The translations under genes and the position numbers were made by a program. Positions 15,632 through 22,710 of a stretch of DNA of 63,268 nt are shown piece by piece. The stretch lies in the NCBI RefSeq assembly GCF_001050195.2, contig NZ_DF967966.1, positions 130,167 to 193,434 of the forward strand, given 5' to 3'. Positions within the stretch are counted from its first letter, which is position 1. The number at the start of each line of letters is the position of its first letter. Origin of the DNA: Anaerolinea thermolimosa. GTDB lineage: Bacteria > Chloroflexota > Anaerolineae > Anaerolineales > Anaerolineaceae. A model generated the notes under the pieces. That model saw only the letters and a list, made by a program, of their open reading frames with translations. It did not search any database and had not been told where the DNA came from.

Positions 15632-16861
15632 TTAACCCGCCTGCGGAGGGATAGTGACGCTTAATGATCGCCGCAGGAAGCGATTGAACGACAGGAGAAG
15701 CACGAAGCAAAGCCCGGCCAGCAGACCCAGCCCATAAGGGGCCAGTTGTCCCAGGGATTGAAGGACGGGTGCTTCACCGGGAGAAGCCAGTGCGGCCAGG
15801 GTGTTGAGCACGCTGAGGGCATTCCACAGGCCGTGGAGGCAAACCACGCCGAAATAGATCAGGCCGAGGCGGAGGAAGCGCCCTTCAGACCAGGCTGATA
15901 CCAGAGCATAGCCCATCCATGCGGCGGTGGTGATGTGCAGCAGGCCAGTCCCTGCCCGACCGATGGCCAGCCAGAGCCAGCCGTCTCCGAGGGGGGAGAC
16001 GAGGGAGAAGAGCGTCTCCAGCAGGGCAAAACCTGCCCCTGAGAGTGCCCCCACCACAAAGCCCCCGGCGGGGGTCAGCTTCCGGGCTCCCAGTGCCCAC
16101 ACGGCCAGAGGTTTCAGGGCTTCTTCAATGAGCGGAATGACCCCGCACAGACCGGCGAGCAGGGCAAAAATGACCCACGGGTTGGTCAGGAAGGGCCGGT
16201 AGAGGCGCAGAAGTGCCTCAGGGTTGGAGAGTGAATTGAGAACCCGGCGTGAGAAGGCTTCGAAGGCTTGTTGTAATTCGGGCGAAGTGCTGATGACAAA
16301 TACCCCCACGGCCAGGACGCACAGGGCAAGGATCACCTCCACCAGGATGACCAGCGGGGTTGAGATGAAGAGGCTGAAATTAAGCACGCCCCAGGTGCGC
16401 TGTGGACTGAAGTCCGGCAGGTGGTGGCGTGCCAGTTCTACCAGCCACCAGAGCGGCAACCCCACGGCCAGAGCCTGCAGGGGGGGTAAAAAGATCCAGG
16501 CCAGCTCGCCGCTTTTAGAGAGGGCCTGCCCGGCTGCCAGCACCACAGGCCAGAGCAGCATGGCCAGGCTGGCGCGCCGCAGGGAAGACTGCCCCGAATG
16601 GCTGGCTGGCGGCTGGCCTGCGATCTGACGGGAGGCGTGTACCAGAGATGGCAACCCCACCAGCGAGAGGAGGGTTAACGTCCAGGTGAGGGAGATGAGG
16701 ATGCCGGCCTGCTCGCGATAGAGAGCGTTGCCCGAGGCCAGGAGCATCAGCGCAGAGACGAGGGTGAAACCGGCGCCCACGGCGCAGGCCGCCACCCCCA
16801 GGGCGCTGACGAGCGCCTGGAGGAGCGAACCTGTGGGGAAACGGGAGGCCGGTGGGTTCAT
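15632..16861 (-). CDS. PrsW-like intramembrane protease family protein
   Basis: A 409-residue protein with about ten membrane segments. The C-terminal half carries PrsW-type motifs: Glu246-Glu247-x2-Lys250 in PLIEEALKPLAVW, GAGFALLETLF with Glu282, His309 in GTGLLHITTAAWMGYAL and a final LHGLWN. These positions form the putative metal site of PrsW, which cleaves an anti-sigma factor in Bacillus. The N-terminal 150 residues are extra membrane segments not recognised. Its ATG follows the TAA of the upstream lipoprotein gene with no gap. Its substrate is unknown; no anti-sigma factor gene is nearby. Confidence 0.78.
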   Translation of the reverse strand: MNPPASRFPTGSLLQALVSALGVAACAVGAGFTLVSALMLLASGNALYREQAGILISLTWTLTLLSLVGLPSLVHASRQIAGQPPASHSGQSSLRRASLAMLLWPVVLAAGQALSKSGELAWIFLPPLQALAVGLPLWWLVELARHHLPDFSPQRTWGVLNFSLFISTPLVILVEVILALCVLAVGVFVISTSPELQQAFEAFSRRVLNSLSNPEALLRLYRPFLTNPWVIFALLAGLCGVIPLIEEALKPLAVWALGARKLTPAGGFVVGALSGAGFALLETLFSLVSPLGDGWLWLAIGRAGTGLLHITTAAWMGYALVSAWSEGRFLRLGLIYFGVVCLHGLWNALSVLNTLAALASPGEAPVLQSLGQLAPYGLGLLAGLCFVLLLSFNRFLRRSLSVTIPPQAG

Positions 16862-18061
16862 TTACTTCTCGACGATGGTCACGGTGAGGATCTTATCTGC
16901 GGGGGGCAGGTTGCCGCCCTGTTGCGGGTCGCGCGGGGTGAGGTTTTTCACCACGTCCATGCCGTTGATGACCTCGCCAAAGATGGTGTACCCACCGTTG
17001 AGGTTGTCTGCCGGGGCATAGGTGATGAAAAACTGGCTGCCGTTGGTGTCGGGCCCGGCATTGGCCATGGCCATCAGCCCTTCGCGGTCAAATTTGGCCT
17101 CGGTGTTTTCATTCTTGAAGAAATATCCCGGCCCGCCATAACCACTTCCAGAGGGGTCTCCGGCCTGAGCCACGAAGCCGGGCAGCACGCGGTGGAAGGG
17201 AACGTTGTTGAACCAGCCCTCGCGCGCCAGGAAGACGAAGCTATTCACGGCCAGCGGGGCTTTATCGGCATAAAGTTTTACGGTGAATGCGCCTTTGCTG
17301 GTCTCAAAGCTGGCTTCGTATTGCTTCTTGGGGTCGATGACCATGGGCGGGCAGGCGGTGTACTGGCGCTTTTCCAGTTTGAACAGTTCTACAATGCCGG
17401 TCAGCCCATCCAGGCTCATGTCTGACTGGTAAGGCAGGCCGTTGATGAACAGGAAAGGCGTGCCCGGGAGCTGGGCGGCGGTTGCTTCGTCGAGGTTGCG
17501 CTGTACCCGGTCTTTGACCTTCTGGCTGTCGAGGTCGGTTTCGAACCGGGTTGTGTCGAGCCCAAGGGCGCCTGCCTGGTCGATCACCCATTTGCGGGCG
17601 GTTTCAGCGTCACTGCCGGCCCATTGATCCTGGCTGGCGAAGATCACTTTTTCCATCTCGTAAAACTTGCCCTGCAGGGCGGCGGCTTCGCTGGCGTAGG
17701 CCATGAGCAACGAGTTGGGATGGGTGCTTAACGGAAAATGACGGTTGACGATGAGCAGATCATCCGGGTAGCGTGCGGCAAGCTGTTCCATCACCGGCGC
17801 CACCATGGCGCAGTACGGGCACTGGAAGTCGCTGTATTCGATGATGGTAATGGGGGCATTTTTTGGCCCGCGGGTATGGTCATCGGCCTGCACGGGGGGG
17901 ATTTTCGCCTGCAGGGTGGGGTCGGGGGTGGGGAGCAGAGGCGTGACGGAACAGCCTTCCATCGGCGGCCCGCTGACGGGCTGGCCGGTGCTCTTCTGCG
18001 GCTGGCAGGCCGTCAGCAGGAAAGCAAGGATGAAGGTTAAAAAGAGAACGCGCTTGATCAT
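16862..18061 (-). CDS. Lipoprotein with DsbA-like thioredoxin and cyclophilin domains
   Basis: A 399-residue predicted lipoprotein: signal segment ending in LLTAC with Cys19 as lipid site, a short Pro-rich spacer, a DsbA/thioredoxin-fold domain (about 55-235) with active site CPYC at 81-84 in EYSDFQCPYC, and a cyclophilin peptidyl-prolyl isomerase domain (about 245-399) with FHRVLPGF, GSGYGGPGY and NGSQFFIT. It would act outside the membrane on secreted proteins, joining disulfide exchange with prolyl isomerisation in one chain. The start at 18061 is chosen because the upstream extension precedes the signal peptide and AGGAG sits 11 nt away. A paralogue lies immediately upstream. Confidence 0.9.
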   Translation of the reverse strand: MIKRVLFLTFILAFLLTACQPQKSTGQPVSGPPMEGCSVTPLLPTPDPTLQAKIPPVQADDHTRGPKNAPITIIEYSDFQCPYCAMVAPVMEQLAARYPDDLLIVNRHFPLSTHPNSLLMAYASEAAALQGKFYEMEKVIFASQDQWAGSDAETARKWVIDQAGALGLDTTRFETDLDSQKVKDRVQRNLDEATAAQLPGTPFLFINGLPYQSDMSLDGLTGIVELFKLEKRQYTACPPMVIDPKKQYEASFETSKGAFTVKLYADKAPLAVNSFVFLAREGWFNNVPFHRVLPGFVAQAGDPSGSGYGGPGYFFKNENTEAKFDREGLMAMANAGPDTNGSQFFITYAPADNLNGGYTIFGEVINGMDVVKNLTPRDPQQGGNLPPADKILTVTIVEK

Positions 18062-18206
18062 GCGGTGGTCATCTCCTGAGTTTCGAAATGCGGGAAAGTT
18101 GCGGCAGGAAAGACACCGCAAAAGCCAAACGGATCCATCCTGTACATCCCCGCTGGGGATTCTAACAGAGAAATCTTAATTTTGTTTAAGCCAGCTTTCT
18201 CTCTGT

Positions 18207-19475
18207 TCATCGTTCTTCGATGACCACGGTTTGCAGAGTATCGCCGTCGGGTAACGCATCGGCGGCGGAAGGGTCGCGCGGGGTGAGGCGATGGAGCACG
18301 TCCATGCCTTCCAGCACCTGCCCGAAGATGACATAGCGGCCATCCAGCTCAGACGCCTGGCGCATGGTGATGAAGAACTGACTGCCGTTGCTGTTGGGGC
18401 CGGGGCTGGCCATGGCCAGCCTTCCGGGGCGGTCGAAACGCAGGTCGTTGACGTCGTCGGGGAAGGCATAGCCCGGGCCGCCGAGGCCGGTGGCGGAGGG
18501 GTCGCCACTCTGAGCCAGCAGGCCGGCTACCACCCGGTGAAAAGTCAATCCATCAAACCAACCCTGGCGTGCCAGGAAGACGAAATTATTCACTGCCAGC
18601 GGGGCCTGCCGGGGGAAGAGCTCGAGGGTGATTTCTCCCTGTGCGGTTTGCAGGCGGGCAAAATACCGCTTCTGCGGGTCGATGATAAAAGGCGGGCAGG
18701 CCTCGAACTGGCGCTCTTCAAGCAGAAGCAGGCGTACCAGCTGATCCAGTGAGCGTTCGTCACGCGGCCCCTGGTAGATCTTCCCGTTGACCAGCAACCA
18801 CGGCATGAGGGGAATGCCGGTCTCGATTCCGAACTGACGGGCGCGCAGAAGCTTTTGCTCTACGGCGGTGTCTTCAAGGGTGGCAACGAAGCGAGCCACG
18901 TCGAGACCCATGCCCTGCACCTGATCCGTCAGCCAGGAGCGGAAATCTTCTGTCGAAAGGCCCACCCATGCTGGCTGGTTTTCCAGCAGAAGCGCGTTCA
19001 TTTCCCAGAAATGCCCCTGTTGTCCGGCGGCTTCGGCGGCAGCGGCGGCCAGCAGAGACTGATCGTTGCCGGGCAGGGGGTAGTGGCGAAAGACCCGCCT
19101 GACCCGGGTGGGATATTTCTGGAGCAGGTGGGAAAGGCTGCGGTGAAGGATGGCACTGGCTTCAGTGGTGTAGTCGGTGTATTCCACGAAGGTTACGGGA
19201 GCATCCGCGGGGCCAAGAGACCAATCTTCGGGGGAAGGCGGGGGGAAGAGAGAAGGTTCGGTGGTTTCAGGGTCAGCACGGGCAGAAACCACCACGCAGG
19301 TCATTTCGGCGGGCAACGCGGTGATGGCGAGGCGGAGCGGAGGGGTGGGGGTGATGGAATTTTGCGGCGAAGTCAACGGGGCGCAGGCCGCCAGCAGGGG
19401 GATGGCAAAGCTCCACATCCAGTGGAAACAACGTTTGAAAAAGGTTACCGGGAACACTCCACCCCCCGTGATCAT
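18207..19475 (-). CDS. Paralogue: cyclophilin lipoprotein with degenerate thioredoxin domain
   Basis: A 422-residue lipoprotein (lipobox LLAAC, Cys31) with the same architecture as the next gene downstream. The thioredoxin-fold domain aligns well (EYTDYTTEASAIL against EYSDFQCPYCAMV), but both active-site cysteines are gone: Thr104 and Ser107 stand in their places, so it cannot do disulfide chemistry. The cyclophilin domain keeps FHRV with the catalytic Arg and NGSQFFIT but has LLAQ where GFVAQ is usual. The start at 19475 lies 13 nt after the tmk stop. A tandem duplication followed by loss of redox function is the simplest reading. Confidence 0.88.
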   Translation of the reverse strand: MITGGGVFPVTFFKRCFHWMWSFAIPLLAACAPLTSPQNSITPTPPLRLAITALPAEMTCVVVSARADPETTEPSLFPPPSPEDWSLGPADAPVTFVEYTDYTTEASAILHRSLSHLLQKYPTRVRRVFRHYPLPGNDQSLLAAAAAEAAGQQGHFWEMNALLLENQPAWVGLSTEDFRSWLTDQVQGMGLDVARFVATLEDTAVEQKLLRARQFGIETGIPLMPWLLVNGKIYQGPRDERSLDQLVRLLLLEERQFEACPPFIIDPQKRYFARLQTAQGEITLELFPRQAPLAVNNFVFLARQGWFDGLTFHRVVAGLLAQSGDPSATGLGGPGYAFPDDVNDLRFDRPGRLAMASPGPNSNGSQFFITMRQASELDGRYVIFGQVLEGMDVLHRLTPRDPSAADALPDGDTLQTVVIEER

Positions 19476-19488
19476 CGCCTCAACTTCT

Positions 19489-20106
19489 TCAGGATGGTTG
19501 CAATCGAGCGAGCACGGCCCGGCGGATGGCCGCCTGGACTTCCTCGCAGGGGCGCGATGCGTCAATGATCACCCAGCGTTGCGGGTCGCGCGCGGCCAGT
19601 TCCAGGTACCCGGTGCGCACCCGATGGTGAAAGGCTTCGGCGTAAGCATCCAGACGGTTCCATTCGCCGCCGTGCCGTTTTCGCGCCAGCCCGATGGCGG
19701 GGTCGATATCCAGCAGGAGGGTGAGATCGGGCCAGAGGCCATCGGTGGCAAATTCGAGCAACAGGCGCAGGCGGTCGAGGTCGTAGCCGTGACCATACCC
19801 CTGGTAAGCGAGGGTGGAATCGGCATAGCGATCAGAGATTACCACGTTTCCCGCACGCAACTGCGGGCGGATCACCTCTTCCACCAGCTGGGCGCGGGCC
19901 GCCAGGAAGAGAAGGATTTCGGTGCGGGGGTGCATGGCGGTGTTTTCCAGGCTGGTGAGAATGGCGCGTATCTGATCGCTGATGGTTGTGCCGCCGGGCT
20001 CGCGAGTGGTGCACACCCTCACACCCAGAGATTGCAGGTGGGCCTGTAATGCTCTGATCTGGGTGGTCTTTCCGCTGCCTTCCGGGCCTTCAAAAGTGAT
20101 GAACAT
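19489..20106 (-). CDS. tmk: Thymidylate kinase
   Basis: Phosphorylates dTMP to dTDP in dTTP synthesis, 205 residues. P-loop GPEGSGKTTQ near residue 7, TREPGGTTISDQIR, the DRY motif in ISDRYADSTLAYQGYG and the LLLDIDPAIGLARKR region are all present. The start at 20106 gives the standard N-terminus MFITFEGPEG; the frame is open upstream through a hairpin but that would add an atypical extension. The Shine-Dalgarno is weak. It is linked to the R3H ATPase upstream. Confidence 0.95.
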   Translation of the reverse strand: MFITFEGPEGSGKTTQIRALQAHLQSLGVRVCTTREPGGTTISDQIRAILTSLENTAMHPRTEILLFLAARAQLVEEVIRPQLRAGNVVISDRYADSTLAYQGYGHGYDLDRLRLLLEFATDGLWPDLTLLLDIDPAIGLARKRHGGEWNRLDAYAEAFHHRVRTGYLELAARDPQRWVIIDASRPCEEVQAAIRRAVLARLQPS

Positions 20107-20152
20107 GGGTTGGGGTTCCGTTGGACGTGACCGAAAACAGGGCTTCAAAATC

Positions 20153-20182
20153 CTGCAGCCGGAAAAACCTTTCCGGCTGCAG
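20153..20182 (-). terminator. Stem-loop between R3H ATPase gene and tmk
   Basis: A 13-bp perfect stem (20153-20165 with 20170-20182) with loop AACC. Read on the minus strand it is followed by GGATTTTG, a short T-run, so it may be a partial terminator or attenuator that lowers read-through into tmk. Confidence 0.6.
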
Positions 20183-20189
20183 GGGAGAG

Positions 20190-21842
20190 TCATTCGCGGT
20201 AAATCCGCACCCTGCGGTTGGGTTCTTTGCCGTAGGAGTGCGAGGTGAGGTCGGCCTGGCGGGCCATTTCGTGCTGCATGCGCCGGATGGCGGCTGAGGC
20301 GGGGGCCAGGTCTACATACCGTTCGCCGTTCATCACCAGTTGAATGGCGCGCTGGGTTTGCATGGCGGTTTCTTCCCAGTTGTCCAGCGCGGAGGGGTGG
20401 TACGTGAGGTTGAAGAGCTCGGCGAGCATCTGTTCGATCTGACTGTTGGTGTTGGCGCGGAGCACGTAAATGGGCAGACCGCGTTGTTCAGCCTCCAGGA
20501 TGGTTTGCTGGCGTCCGCGGTAATAGGTGCGCAGGGTGATGAGCGCCTCGGCTTCGGAGAGTTCTCGCACCACAATTGCCGGCACGCCAAGCCGCTTGGC
20601 GCTCTGTTGCAGGCGGTTGCGGGCCACACCGTAGGGGTAAATGTGCACCGGCTGGAGGGGAGCTCCGGGCTGGGCGCTGGCGGCGGGCAGCTCAAGGTTC
20701 AGGCCGTTGGCCGAGCGGAGGGGTTGTTCCGCGGCGGGGCGGGGCTGAGTGGGCTGTTCAACGCCGCTGGAACGGCGCATACCCCCCAGCGGGGCGGGTG
20801 CGCTGCTGGCCATGCCCATTCCCACGGGGCGTACTGTGGTGGGCGGGGCTTTTTCGATGTGAATTTCGCCGTTCTCGTCGCGGTAGCGGATCTCCGGCGG
20901 GAGCGGGTAACTGCGCACCAGAGCGTCTACCGCGGCGGCCACATCGGCATGGATGGCCAGCCGGTCGCGTTCCTGAATTTCGATGAGCACGTCAAAGGTG
21001 GGCGGGGCCCGGCGTTCGAGAACGGTCTTCTGGGTGCCGCGGCGGCGGGCTTCGTCATCTGAGAGCGTCACGGCCTCAATCCCCCCCACCAGGTCTGAGA
21101 GGGTGGGGTTGAGGAGCAGGTTCTCGAGGGTGCGGCCGTGCGCTGTGCCGATGAGTTGCACGCCGCGTTCGGCAATGGTGCGTGCGGCGGCGGCTTCCAG
21201 TTCGCGTCCGATCTCGTCGATGACGATCACTTCGGGGTTGTGGTTCTCAACCGCTTCGATCATCACCTCGTGTTGCAGAGAAGGTTTGGCCACCTGCATC
21301 CGGCGGGCGCGGCCCACGGCCGGGTGGGGGACATCGCCATCTCCGCCGATTTCGTTGGAGGTATCTACGATGATCACCCGTTTTTTCTCGGCCAGAATAC
21401 GCGCCGCTTCGCGCAGCATGGTGGTCTTCCCGATGCCCGGGCGCCCCAGAATGAGGATGCTCTTGCCGGATTCGATCAGGTCTTGAATGATGTCAATCGT
21501 GCCATAGACGGCACGCCCCACCCGGCAGGTGAGGCCCACAATATGCCCGCGCCGGTTGCGGATGGCCGAGATGCGGTGAAGGGTTCGCTCCAGCCCGGCG
21601 CGGTTATCGGCATCGAATTCACCAATGCGCGACACCACGTACTCGATCTCAGCATGGGTCACTTCTTCCTGGAGAAGCTCGTGTTCACCGGAAGTGAAGC
21701 GCACCATCGGGCGACGCCCCAGATCGAGGACAATCTCTAAGAGATGATCGCTATCGTTTGCCTGGATGACCGCCTGCGCGATTTTTGGGGGCAGTACCCC
21801 CAGCAGGGCTTGCAGGTCATCGGTTATTCGTCGTTGAGTCAT
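20190..21842 (-). CDS. SpoIIIAA/Ycf45-like AAA ATPase with C-terminal R3H domain
   Basis: A 550-residue protein. The N-terminal half is a secretion-type AAA ATPase like SpoIIIAA and plastid Ycf45: Walker [15 protein letters not shown] near residue 135, [24 protein letters not shown], Walker [12 protein letters not shown] and [14 protein letters not shown] Pro/Ala-rich linker follows (about 330-390), then a segment resembling nucleotide-binding regulatory folds, and a C-terminal R3H domain ([25 protein letters not shown]) that binds single-stranded nucleic acid. Members occur in cyanobacteria and Chloroflexota; function is unknown. Start at the ATG 21842, with an alternative TTG 21 nt upstream. 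Confidence 0.88.
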
Positions 21843-21873
21843 AAGTTTCTGTCTTACCTTCAATCCACTTTCA

Positions 21874-22710
21874 TTAATTATCGTGAATGGTCGAATGTTG
21901 AACGAGAGGAACAGTTACCTCAGGATTATACAACTCTCTCCCGGATTGGCGGGCAAGCAAAGCCGCACGCTGTGCCACGGCCAGGTGCCGCACCAGAAGC
22001 GCCCGGCGCGAGGAGGCCCGCCCCTGCAGGCGGTGAAGAGAGGGTTCGAGCCACGCCTGATACGAACGCGCGGCAATGTATACTGGCCGCTGCGGCTGGA
22101 GAGGCTGACGTGCCAGCAAGCCGCCGAGGACTTCGTCGAGGTTTTCCACGGCGGGATGAATCACCGGTTGCAGGTAGATGCCCTGTGGGCCGAAGACGGC
22201 ATCGGCATAGGCTACCAGCTCGTGCCCTTGGTGGTAAACCAGCCGCAGCCCTGGCTGGAGCGGGATGGGTTCGGCGCTCTGCACGAGGGGCGGCACGAGG
22301 AGCTGGTAAAGGCTGCGCACGGCGTTTTCATCGGTGGCAGACGCCGGTTGCCAGAGCTCACTGAAGAGGCTTTCGGGCCGGGTGAGGAATTGCCAGTTGG
22401 TCTGCCAGGCATACACACTGAAGCCGTTCTCGCGGATGGCATCCAGCGCCGGGCTGTGTTCTTCTACCTCGATGAGCAAATGGAATGCCCCCCACCCACC
22501 GGCCGTCTCGGACATAGCCTCGAGGAGATCGGCCAGGTTGGGGTGCTCCAGCCCGTCGGCGGGGAGCAGGAAGGAGATGCGCGCCGAACGTTCACCGGCG
22601 GGGTAGATCATCTGCCCGATGAGGGCGGCGCGTCCGTTGCGCGACGGACAGACCCCCGTAAAGATGCCGCGGGTGGGGTCGAGGTGGGTGAGGATGGCCA
22701 GTGCCCCCAC
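21874..22710 (-). CDS. Unknown protein, possible GNAT-like fold
   Basis: At least 278 residues from a GTG at 22710, which has no Shine-Dalgarno. The frame stays open and protein-like upstream to the pdxT stop: residues such as WHDLITLYRYRHR and CTDSALALTRGTP precede it, so the true start is probably earlier. No ATG, GTG or TTG exists there; an ATA at 22815 that overlaps the pdxT TAA (ATAA) is preceded by GGAG at 8 nt. Text such as [40 protein letters not shown] and [15 protein letters not shown] loosely recalls tandem acetyltransferase-like domains of Chloroflexota. Function not assigned. Confidence 0.75.

Follow-up and report, generated by a model that had tools for sequence, protein, structure and literature searches.

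Introduction

The best-known redox-dead proteins of the thioredoxin superfamily belong to the eukaryotic endoplasmic reticulum, where ERp27 and ERp29 are non-catalytic thioredoxin-fold proteins. T. brucei Trx2 is described as having no reductase activity and as acting as a chaperone even with every Cys replaced by Ser (PMC6783113), and the Cys residues of YjbH as dispensable in B. subtilis and S. aureus and required in L. monocytogenes (PMC7253607). Here we analyzed a 63,268-nucleotide stretch of the Anaerolinea thermolimosa genome (contig NZ_DF967966.1, positions 130,167 to 193,434; the window), in which two tandem lipoprotein genes, copies A and B, each encode a DsbA-like thioredoxin domain fused to a cyclophilin. 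Copy A has both redox cysteines and copy B has neither. Comparison with relatives gives good support to B being a conserved pseudoenzyme. Like Trx2, YjbH, ERp27 and ERp29, B would combine a thioredoxin fold with the loss of disulfide chemistry; unlike B, those proteins reside in other compartments and have neither a cyclophilin nor an active tandem partner.

The closest described relatives of the first domain form the DsbA/DsbG-like family (PF13462, PF01323, NF041057). Both copies match Thioredoxin_4, and A also shares with this family a CPYC motif and a Gly-Thr-cisPro loop. Unlike its members, A and B carry a cyclophilin behind the thioredoxin domain, and B has no catalytic Cys, Asn in place of a His, and Met before the cis-Pro. 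NF041057, the Rcas_1661 thioredoxin-like (seleno)lipoprotein, is catalogued as a DsbG-like selenoprotein of the UxxC type (PMC13188914); the word ‘cyclophilin’ does not occur in the accessible portion of that article. The second domain resembles the single-domain cyclophilins PpiA and PpiB (PF00160), from which A and B differ in being lipid-anchored and fused behind a thioredoxin domain, and B also in having lost the groove Phe in all four orthologues and the catalytic Arg in two. Two surface thioredoxin-family lipoproteins, Etrx1 and Etrx2, are described from one Gram-positive organism (PMC3914529). A and B are likewise tandem thioredoxin-fold lipoproteins in one organism. Etrx1 and Etrx2 are reportedly both redox-active and lack a fused cyclophilin. 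The two domains are each known already, and so is the concept of a thioredoxin-fold protein without activity; a tandem active/inactive pair, reciprocal site loss and a selenocysteine form of the fusion were not found in searches of the open-licence literature.

Results and discussion

Two tandem thioredoxin-cyclophilin lipoproteins

A first-pass annotation of the window had proposed two adjacent lipoprotein genes of DsbA-like plus cyclophilin architecture, one with CPYC and the other with Thr and Ser for both Cys. Reading frames, Pfam matches and lipoboxes agree with this description.

16862..18061, minus strand: copy A, a lipoprotein with a Thioredoxin_4/DsbA-like domain and a cyclophilin, redox motif CPYC (399 amino acids, ATG at 18061)
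18207..19475, minus strand: copy B, same architecture as A, redox-dead (TEAS) (422 amino acids, ATG at 19475)

Thioredoxin_4 is matched at 84.0 bits in A and 51.7 bits in B, both above the gathering score (cut-off 23.2), and at 50.3-61.7 bits in three further B orthologues, also above the cut-off. Pro_isomerase (PF00160) scores are 139.1 bits in A and 138.1 bits in B (cut-off 21.7). The lipobox Cys, read from the pattern alone without a signal-peptide program, is LTA-C19 in A and LAA-C31 in B. A and B are 41% identical over 410 columns; taken by domain, the identity is 35% for the thioredoxin and 53% for the cyclophilin. NF041057 is the best NCBIfam match of both (76.5 bits for A, 75.5 bits for B), below its equivalog cut-off of 190.

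The predicted structures are confident (pLDDT, the predicted local distance difference test score, 95.1 for B from AlphaFold and 95.5 for A), and the order of structural elements is nearly identical in both. The listed Foldseek and VIA-align neighbours all derive from the cyclophilin half; those of the B model in the PDB are cyclophilins, such as 1w74 (Z 22.9, root-mean-square deviation 1.8 over 150 residues). The thioredoxin half was therefore placed by sequence, A matching DsbA 4pwp (E 6.6e-11) and B matching 7uno (E 1.5e-6).

The redox site of copy B

Comparisons within the GTDB family of the window were based on 132 fusions from 118 genomes, found in 120 fetched stretches, one of which (from G002) was an uninformative arbitrary contig. 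An incomplete second copy in G087 (L149) was dropped from the tree and the counts, leaving 131 fusions. The family holds at least 131, with matches in, for example, G091, G045, G117 and G119 outside the sample. The following elements bear on the redox chemistry of A and B.

17810..17821, minus strand: redox motif of A, Cys81-Pro-Tyr-Cys84
19155..19166, minus strand: counterpart of the redox motif in B, Thr104-Glu-Ala-Ser107
17717..17725, minus strand: Thr-His114-Pro of A; His found in 115/120 fusions with an intact redox site
19062..19070, minus strand: Gly-Asn137-Asp of B, His lost; Asn in 4 of 4 B orthologues
17456..17464, minus strand: cis-Pro loop of A, Gly-Thr201-Pro202
18801..18809, minus strand: cis-Pro loop of B, Leu-Met224-Pro225, cis-Pro kept; Met-Pro in 4 of 4 B orthologues
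19296..19304, minus strand: Met-Thr-Cys60 of B, N-terminal half of a conserved non-catalytic Cys pair; column 98% Cys in 132 rows
18690..18701, minus strand: Ala-Cys260-Pro-Pro of B, linker half of the same pair; column 99% Cys in 132 rows

The catalytic motif reads TEAS, SPAV, AAAS and APAS across the four B orthologues, none of which has a catalytic Cys. The first redox position is Thr in the window and Ser, Ala and Ala in the others, neither Cys nor selenocysteine. Two trivial explanations were rejected: a misread or frameshifted CxxC is ruled out by the intact frame and the confident fold model, and a hidden selenocysteine by the lack of a stop codon within the B match.

The changes in B extend beyond the motif. 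His114 of A follows the second strand and precedes the next helix; from this place in the models, we infer that it lies in the counterpart of DsbA loop 1. DsbA proteins have a cis-Pro loop with the consensus X-[GAST]-[VT]-P, and loop 1 is named as near the active site (PMC13269488). The Pro-Gly-Thr-Pro of A fits this consensus and B does not, having Leu-Met-Pro in the window and Thr-Met-Pro in the orthologues. The first-pass annotation had considered the rest of the domain well kept, which holds for the fold and the cis-Pro (retained in all 131 fusions) and fails for His114, replaced by Asn137, and Thr201, replaced by Met224.

Across the family, the His is present in 115/120 redox-intact and 0/11 redox-altered fusions. 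The 11 altered rows come from g1 (the genus of the window), g39 and g38 and represent few independent events. The Thr before the cis-Pro is a weaker companion of Cys loss, being kept in 113/120 intact and 5/11 altered fusions. Since the His is absent from all altered copies and present in nearly all intact ones, it may have a role in the redox chemistry of these fusions.

The catalytic columns are Cys or selenocysteine in 92% and 95% of the 132 aligned relatives, vs 98% and 99% Cys in the columns of the extra pair. This pair, formed between the N-terminal extension and the ACPP linker and retained in B, presumably makes a structural disulfide.

Conservation of copy B

B orthologues were found in four of the five genomes of g1 (the window genome G000, G003, G004 and G005), and A is also present in those four. 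The fifth genome, G002 (61% complete), yielded no fusion; its matches are to separate halves, one to the cyclophilin and two to the thioredoxin domain. Frame, lipobox, cis-Pro and extra Cys pair are intact in all four B orthologues. A search of 400 genomes of the order with a profile of the four B sequences placed B of G000, G004 and G005 at 696-709 bits and the next match at 504. Among the top-scoring loci only, 0/29 genomes outside g1 lacked either redox residue. Restriction of the inactive copy to this strain, or scattered changes indicative of decay, had been named at the outset as grounds for abandoning a conserved active/inactive pair. B is instead spread through the genus, and its changes are largely ordered, with Asn and Met fixed in 4/4.

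In a careful tree built from 48 rows, picked by genus out of the 131 and with active-site columns masked, the B sequences form one clade (support 99/97) and the A sequences another (100/100). A quick tree of all 131 rows, in which masking was limited to the CxxC columns, also recovers both clades. The A and B clades of g1 are not sisters in the free tree, and holding them together is not rejected (approximately unbiased test, p-AU 0.287). The A/B duplication may thus fall inside or outside g1.

Identity in the thioredoxin domain is 45-62% among B and 52-62% among A, and in the cyclophilin 61-71% among B and 69-76% among A. The ratio of nonsynonymous to synonymous substitution (dN/dS, Nei-Gojobori count) of the thioredoxin domain is 0.24-0.42 for B and 0.12-0.22 for A; these values are rough, with dS of 0.8 to 3.6 and near saturation. 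They indicate purifying selection on the B thioredoxin domain, apparently weaker than on that of A.

The cyclophilin half

Two elements mark the isomerase site.

17186..17197, minus strand: cyclophilin Phe-His-Arg291-Val of A; Arg in 4 of 4 A orthologues
18531..18542, minus strand: cyclophilin Phe-His-Arg314-Val of B; Arg column R, K, T, R in G000, G003, G004, G005

The key trio is Arg, Phe and Gln, which we take to correspond to Arg55, Phe60 and Gln63 of human CypA. It reads R, F, Q in A; in B it reads R, L, Q in the window and K/Q/Q, T/Y/Q and R/Y/Q in G003, G004 and G005. The groove Phe (Phe296 in A, Leu319 in B) is Phe in all four A orthologues, and its column in B is L, Q, Y, Y. B thus retains the key Arg in 2/4 orthologues and the key Phe in 0/4, whereas A retains both throughout, suggesting that B is drifting away from isomerase chemistry too, a point absent from the first-pass annotation. 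With these replacements, B is probably not simply a redox-dead isomerase.

The wider family of fusions

Across the family the fusion sits between tmk and prsW, usually as a single copy. Counting an isomerase site as lost when Arg or Gln is replaced or missing, Arg to Lys included, the 131 fusions fall into the following classes. Both Cys are accompanied by the isomerase Arg and Gln in 94 fusions and by a lost isomerase site in 17; selenocysteine-Cys forms keep the isomerase residues in 5 and lack them in 4; fusions without catalytic Cys keep them in 3 and lack them in 2; the 6 with one Cys keep them. Redox and isomerase sites are lost independently of each other. In L100, L110, L118, L150, L151, L152 and L157 (g2, g29, g36), CxxC is intact and the cyclophilin lacks Arg, Gln and much of the groove.

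In the fetched stretches, 13 genomes have two fusions: one intact and one altered in 9, two intact in 4 and two altered in none. The remaining 105 of the 118 genomes have one, which is altered in 23. As these 23 are spread over seven genera, alteration is not confined to pairs. The expectation that active and inactive copies always pair or adjoin does not hold. The copies of G005 are ~288 kb apart, and six g39 genomes (G123, G124, G130, G131, G132, G137) each have one fusion that is redox-altered. No second fusion was found in these six whole genomes, which gave half matches only, with a separate thioredoxin-domain match in five. All six altered fusions keep the isomerase Arg and Gln. In g39 L116, L064, L082, L129 and L147, the first catalytic Cys is replaced by K, R, L, N and K, respectively, and an extra Cys occurs four residues earlier, possibly a moved or altered thiol site.

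In a 251-genome sample of the phylum, full-length matches came from the order and, beyond it, from just five genomes, which belong to other orders of the class. In other classes, matches at E <= 1e-55, a limit that could miss remote fusions, covered only the cyclophilin. Viral contigs gave no match. The 4 loci from a scan of genome contigs each aligned with a single domain over 118-175 query residues, and no locus matched the fusion in full.

Probable selenocysteine forms

An in-frame TGA replaces the first Cys codon (UPxC) in 9 of the 131 family fusions. Order-level searches added 12 such genes outside the family, for a total of 21.

Family UGA fusions: L043 (6839, plus-strand frame), L044 (7090, minus-strand frame), L046, L073, L083, L085, L098, L099, L103
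Order-level UGA fusions: L162, L163, L165, L166, L178-L180, L184, L188, L190, L193, L194

Their redox motifs are UPYC, UPGC and UPAC. SelB is found above its family cut-off in 9/9 genomes with a family UGA fusion, and tRNA-Sec, the selenocysteine tRNA, above cut-off in 13/13 genomes tested, including all nine and the window genome. A hairpin can be drawn at a fixed distance after the TGA, with 7/7 base pairs in 18 of the 21 genes and 6 pairs in the other 3. At the same positions, none of 111 Cys copies forms 7 pairs and 5 form 6, and the 11 redox-altered copies form at most 4. The loop is CGTG-N-T in 21/21 genes, and three pair positions have changed on both sides. The hairpin is present in the minimum-energy fold of 9/9 family genes.

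Some observations speak against the hairpin. A different minimum-energy fold is preferred in 6 of the 12 order-level genes. In simple base shuffles of the 48 nucleotides after the UGA, the nine selenocysteine genes gave z of -0.2 to -1.4, and one of nine controls gave -3.1. The hairpin bases also code for conserved residues, mostly APVLAQ, and protein constraint may explain part of the pattern; the Cys copies lack the hairpin. The case for the hairpin relies on its fixed position, fixed loop and paired changes and not on the shuffle scores. The hairpin fits a bacterial selenocysteine insertion sequence (SECIS), and the UGA probably encodes selenocysteine.

In G033 and G034, the altered copy mirrors B, with a UPYC redox site and both cyclophilin Arg and Gln replaced by Leu. 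In two tandem pairs of g7, it is the probable selenocysteine copy that carries the broken cyclophilin.

Possible functions of copies A and B

Copy A keeps both sites and presumably carries out thiol-disulfide exchange and prolyl isomerization on the external face of the membrane, with exported proteins as its substrates; a membrane partner would recharge the lipid-anchored protein. The window genome holds VKOR, a DsbD-type protein and three further Thioredoxin_4 domains. VKOR was found in only 4/7 genomes and a DsbD-type protein in 6/7; A may act in either direction, with one or another membrane partner. Copy B would have lost thiol chemistry through changes in three DsbA active-site loops (CxxC, the loop with the His that follows the second strand, and the loop whose Thr precedes the cis-Pro) while keeping the fold, cis-Pro, lipid anchor, extra Cys pair and cyclophilin scaffold. 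Such a protein could bind segments that are unfolded or contain proline, without catalytic turnover. We give about an even chance to B being a lipid-anchored holdase or presenter that binds clients beside the catalytic A and is not its obligate subunit. Trx2 and YjbH may serve as precedents for B as a non-catalytic thioredoxin-fold protein. The step from conserved pseudoenzyme to holdase is inferred and is the weak link in this proposal.

Several points weigh against it. The B orthologues known number four and all come from one genus. Losing the Thr that precedes the cis-Pro is no general rule: 5 of the 11 altered fusions retain this residue, and 7 of the 120 intact ones lack it. The dN/dS of the B thioredoxin domain is about twice that of A, and partial relaxation is possible. 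Finally, the cyclophilin of B in the window still has its catalytic Arg and Gln, and B may have isomerase activity. The last point would suit a dedicated prolyl isomerase, with the cyclophilin half catalytic and the thioredoxin half only a binding arm. The nearly equal Pro_isomerase scores of A and B also favour this, as does the retention of Arg and Gln in G005 and in the six g39 redox-altered fusions. We nevertheless regard it as unlikely, given that Arg is replaced by Thr in G004 and by Lys in G003 and that the groove Phe is changed in every B and in no A. Relaxed selection on a duplicate heading for loss would account for the elevated dN/dS and for the isomerase residues that differ among B orthologues, but we find it very unlikely. 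Frames, lipobox and extra Cys pair have stayed intact in 4/4 at 45-62% thioredoxin identity, the new residues at the His and Thr sites are identical in all four, and B was retained in G005 after parting from A.

The two genes adjoin in G000, G003 and G004, and both copies are present in all four genomes of the genus that have a fusion, as would be expected if B were a structural subunit that positions substrate for A in an A-B hetero-oligomer. The separation of the copies in G005 and the single fusion seen in the fetched stretches of 105/118 genomes, implying that the architecture needs no such partner in general, make this quite improbable. B could also be a specific adaptor or regulator that, for instance, delivers clients to the PrsW-type membrane protease whose gene adjoins the fusion in 30/31 loci. 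YjbH is such a thioredoxin-domain protease adaptor, with Cys residues that are not needed in some species (PMC7253607). PrsW is also found beside single, fully active fusions, so that the link is not particular to B, and in G005 it stayed with A and not B; we see very little chance of an adaptor role.

In addition to the holdase or presenter role of B, a broader idea is offered tentatively, at somewhat below even likelihood. The fusion may be an order-wide, partly selenocysteine-using foldase chassis from which either site can be dropped. Its core function would be client holding at the membrane, with the chemistries optional and shared out between tandem copies. Copy B of g1 has a dead redox site, and in the tandem pairs of g7 the selenocysteine copies have a dead isomerase site. 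One bacterial lineage thus provides a natural set of variants with both sites alive, the redox site dead, the isomerase site dead, or probable selenocysteine, which makes a foldase role apart from the chemistry testable with natural proteins. The set also points to a selenoprotein architecture, a UPxC thioredoxin domain with a cyclophilin, that was not found named in the accessible portions of the open-licence literature searched.

Gene neighbourhood

The fusion genes are flanked by constant neighbours.

15632..16861, minus strand: gene of a PrsW-family membrane protease, immediately next to A on its downstream side; a constant neighbour
19489..20193, minus strand: tmk (thymidylate kinase), immediately next to B on its upstream side; a constant neighbour
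18159..18188, minus strand: promoter-like TAAACA-18-TAGAAT with TG before the second hexamer, in the B-A gap; weak, one found vs 0.6 expected

Neighbourhoods were compared at 31 loci selected, not at random, from the 120 fetched stretches, on the basis of tmk, A/B, PrsW, DedA and plsC. In 27 of them, one or two fusion copies are flanked by tmk at one end and PrsW at the other. The order tmk-B-A-PrsW is found in G000, G003 and G004. The separated copies of G005 lie on one contig, and A remains with PrsW-DedA-plsC. In the window, B starts 13 nucleotides past tmk, and the gap between B and A is 145 nucleotides. From this gap and its promoter-like site, the count of which is close to chance, we would guess that B and A may be expressed separately. 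Further upstream, a 278-residue open reading frame (21874-22710, minus strand) without a Pfam or NCBIfam match is located between pdxT and an ATPase gene (20190-21863, minus strand). The ATPase gene is upstream of tmk in the conserved neighbourhood, and its product combines a SpoIIIAA-like core with an R3H domain and a domain labelled PTPase.

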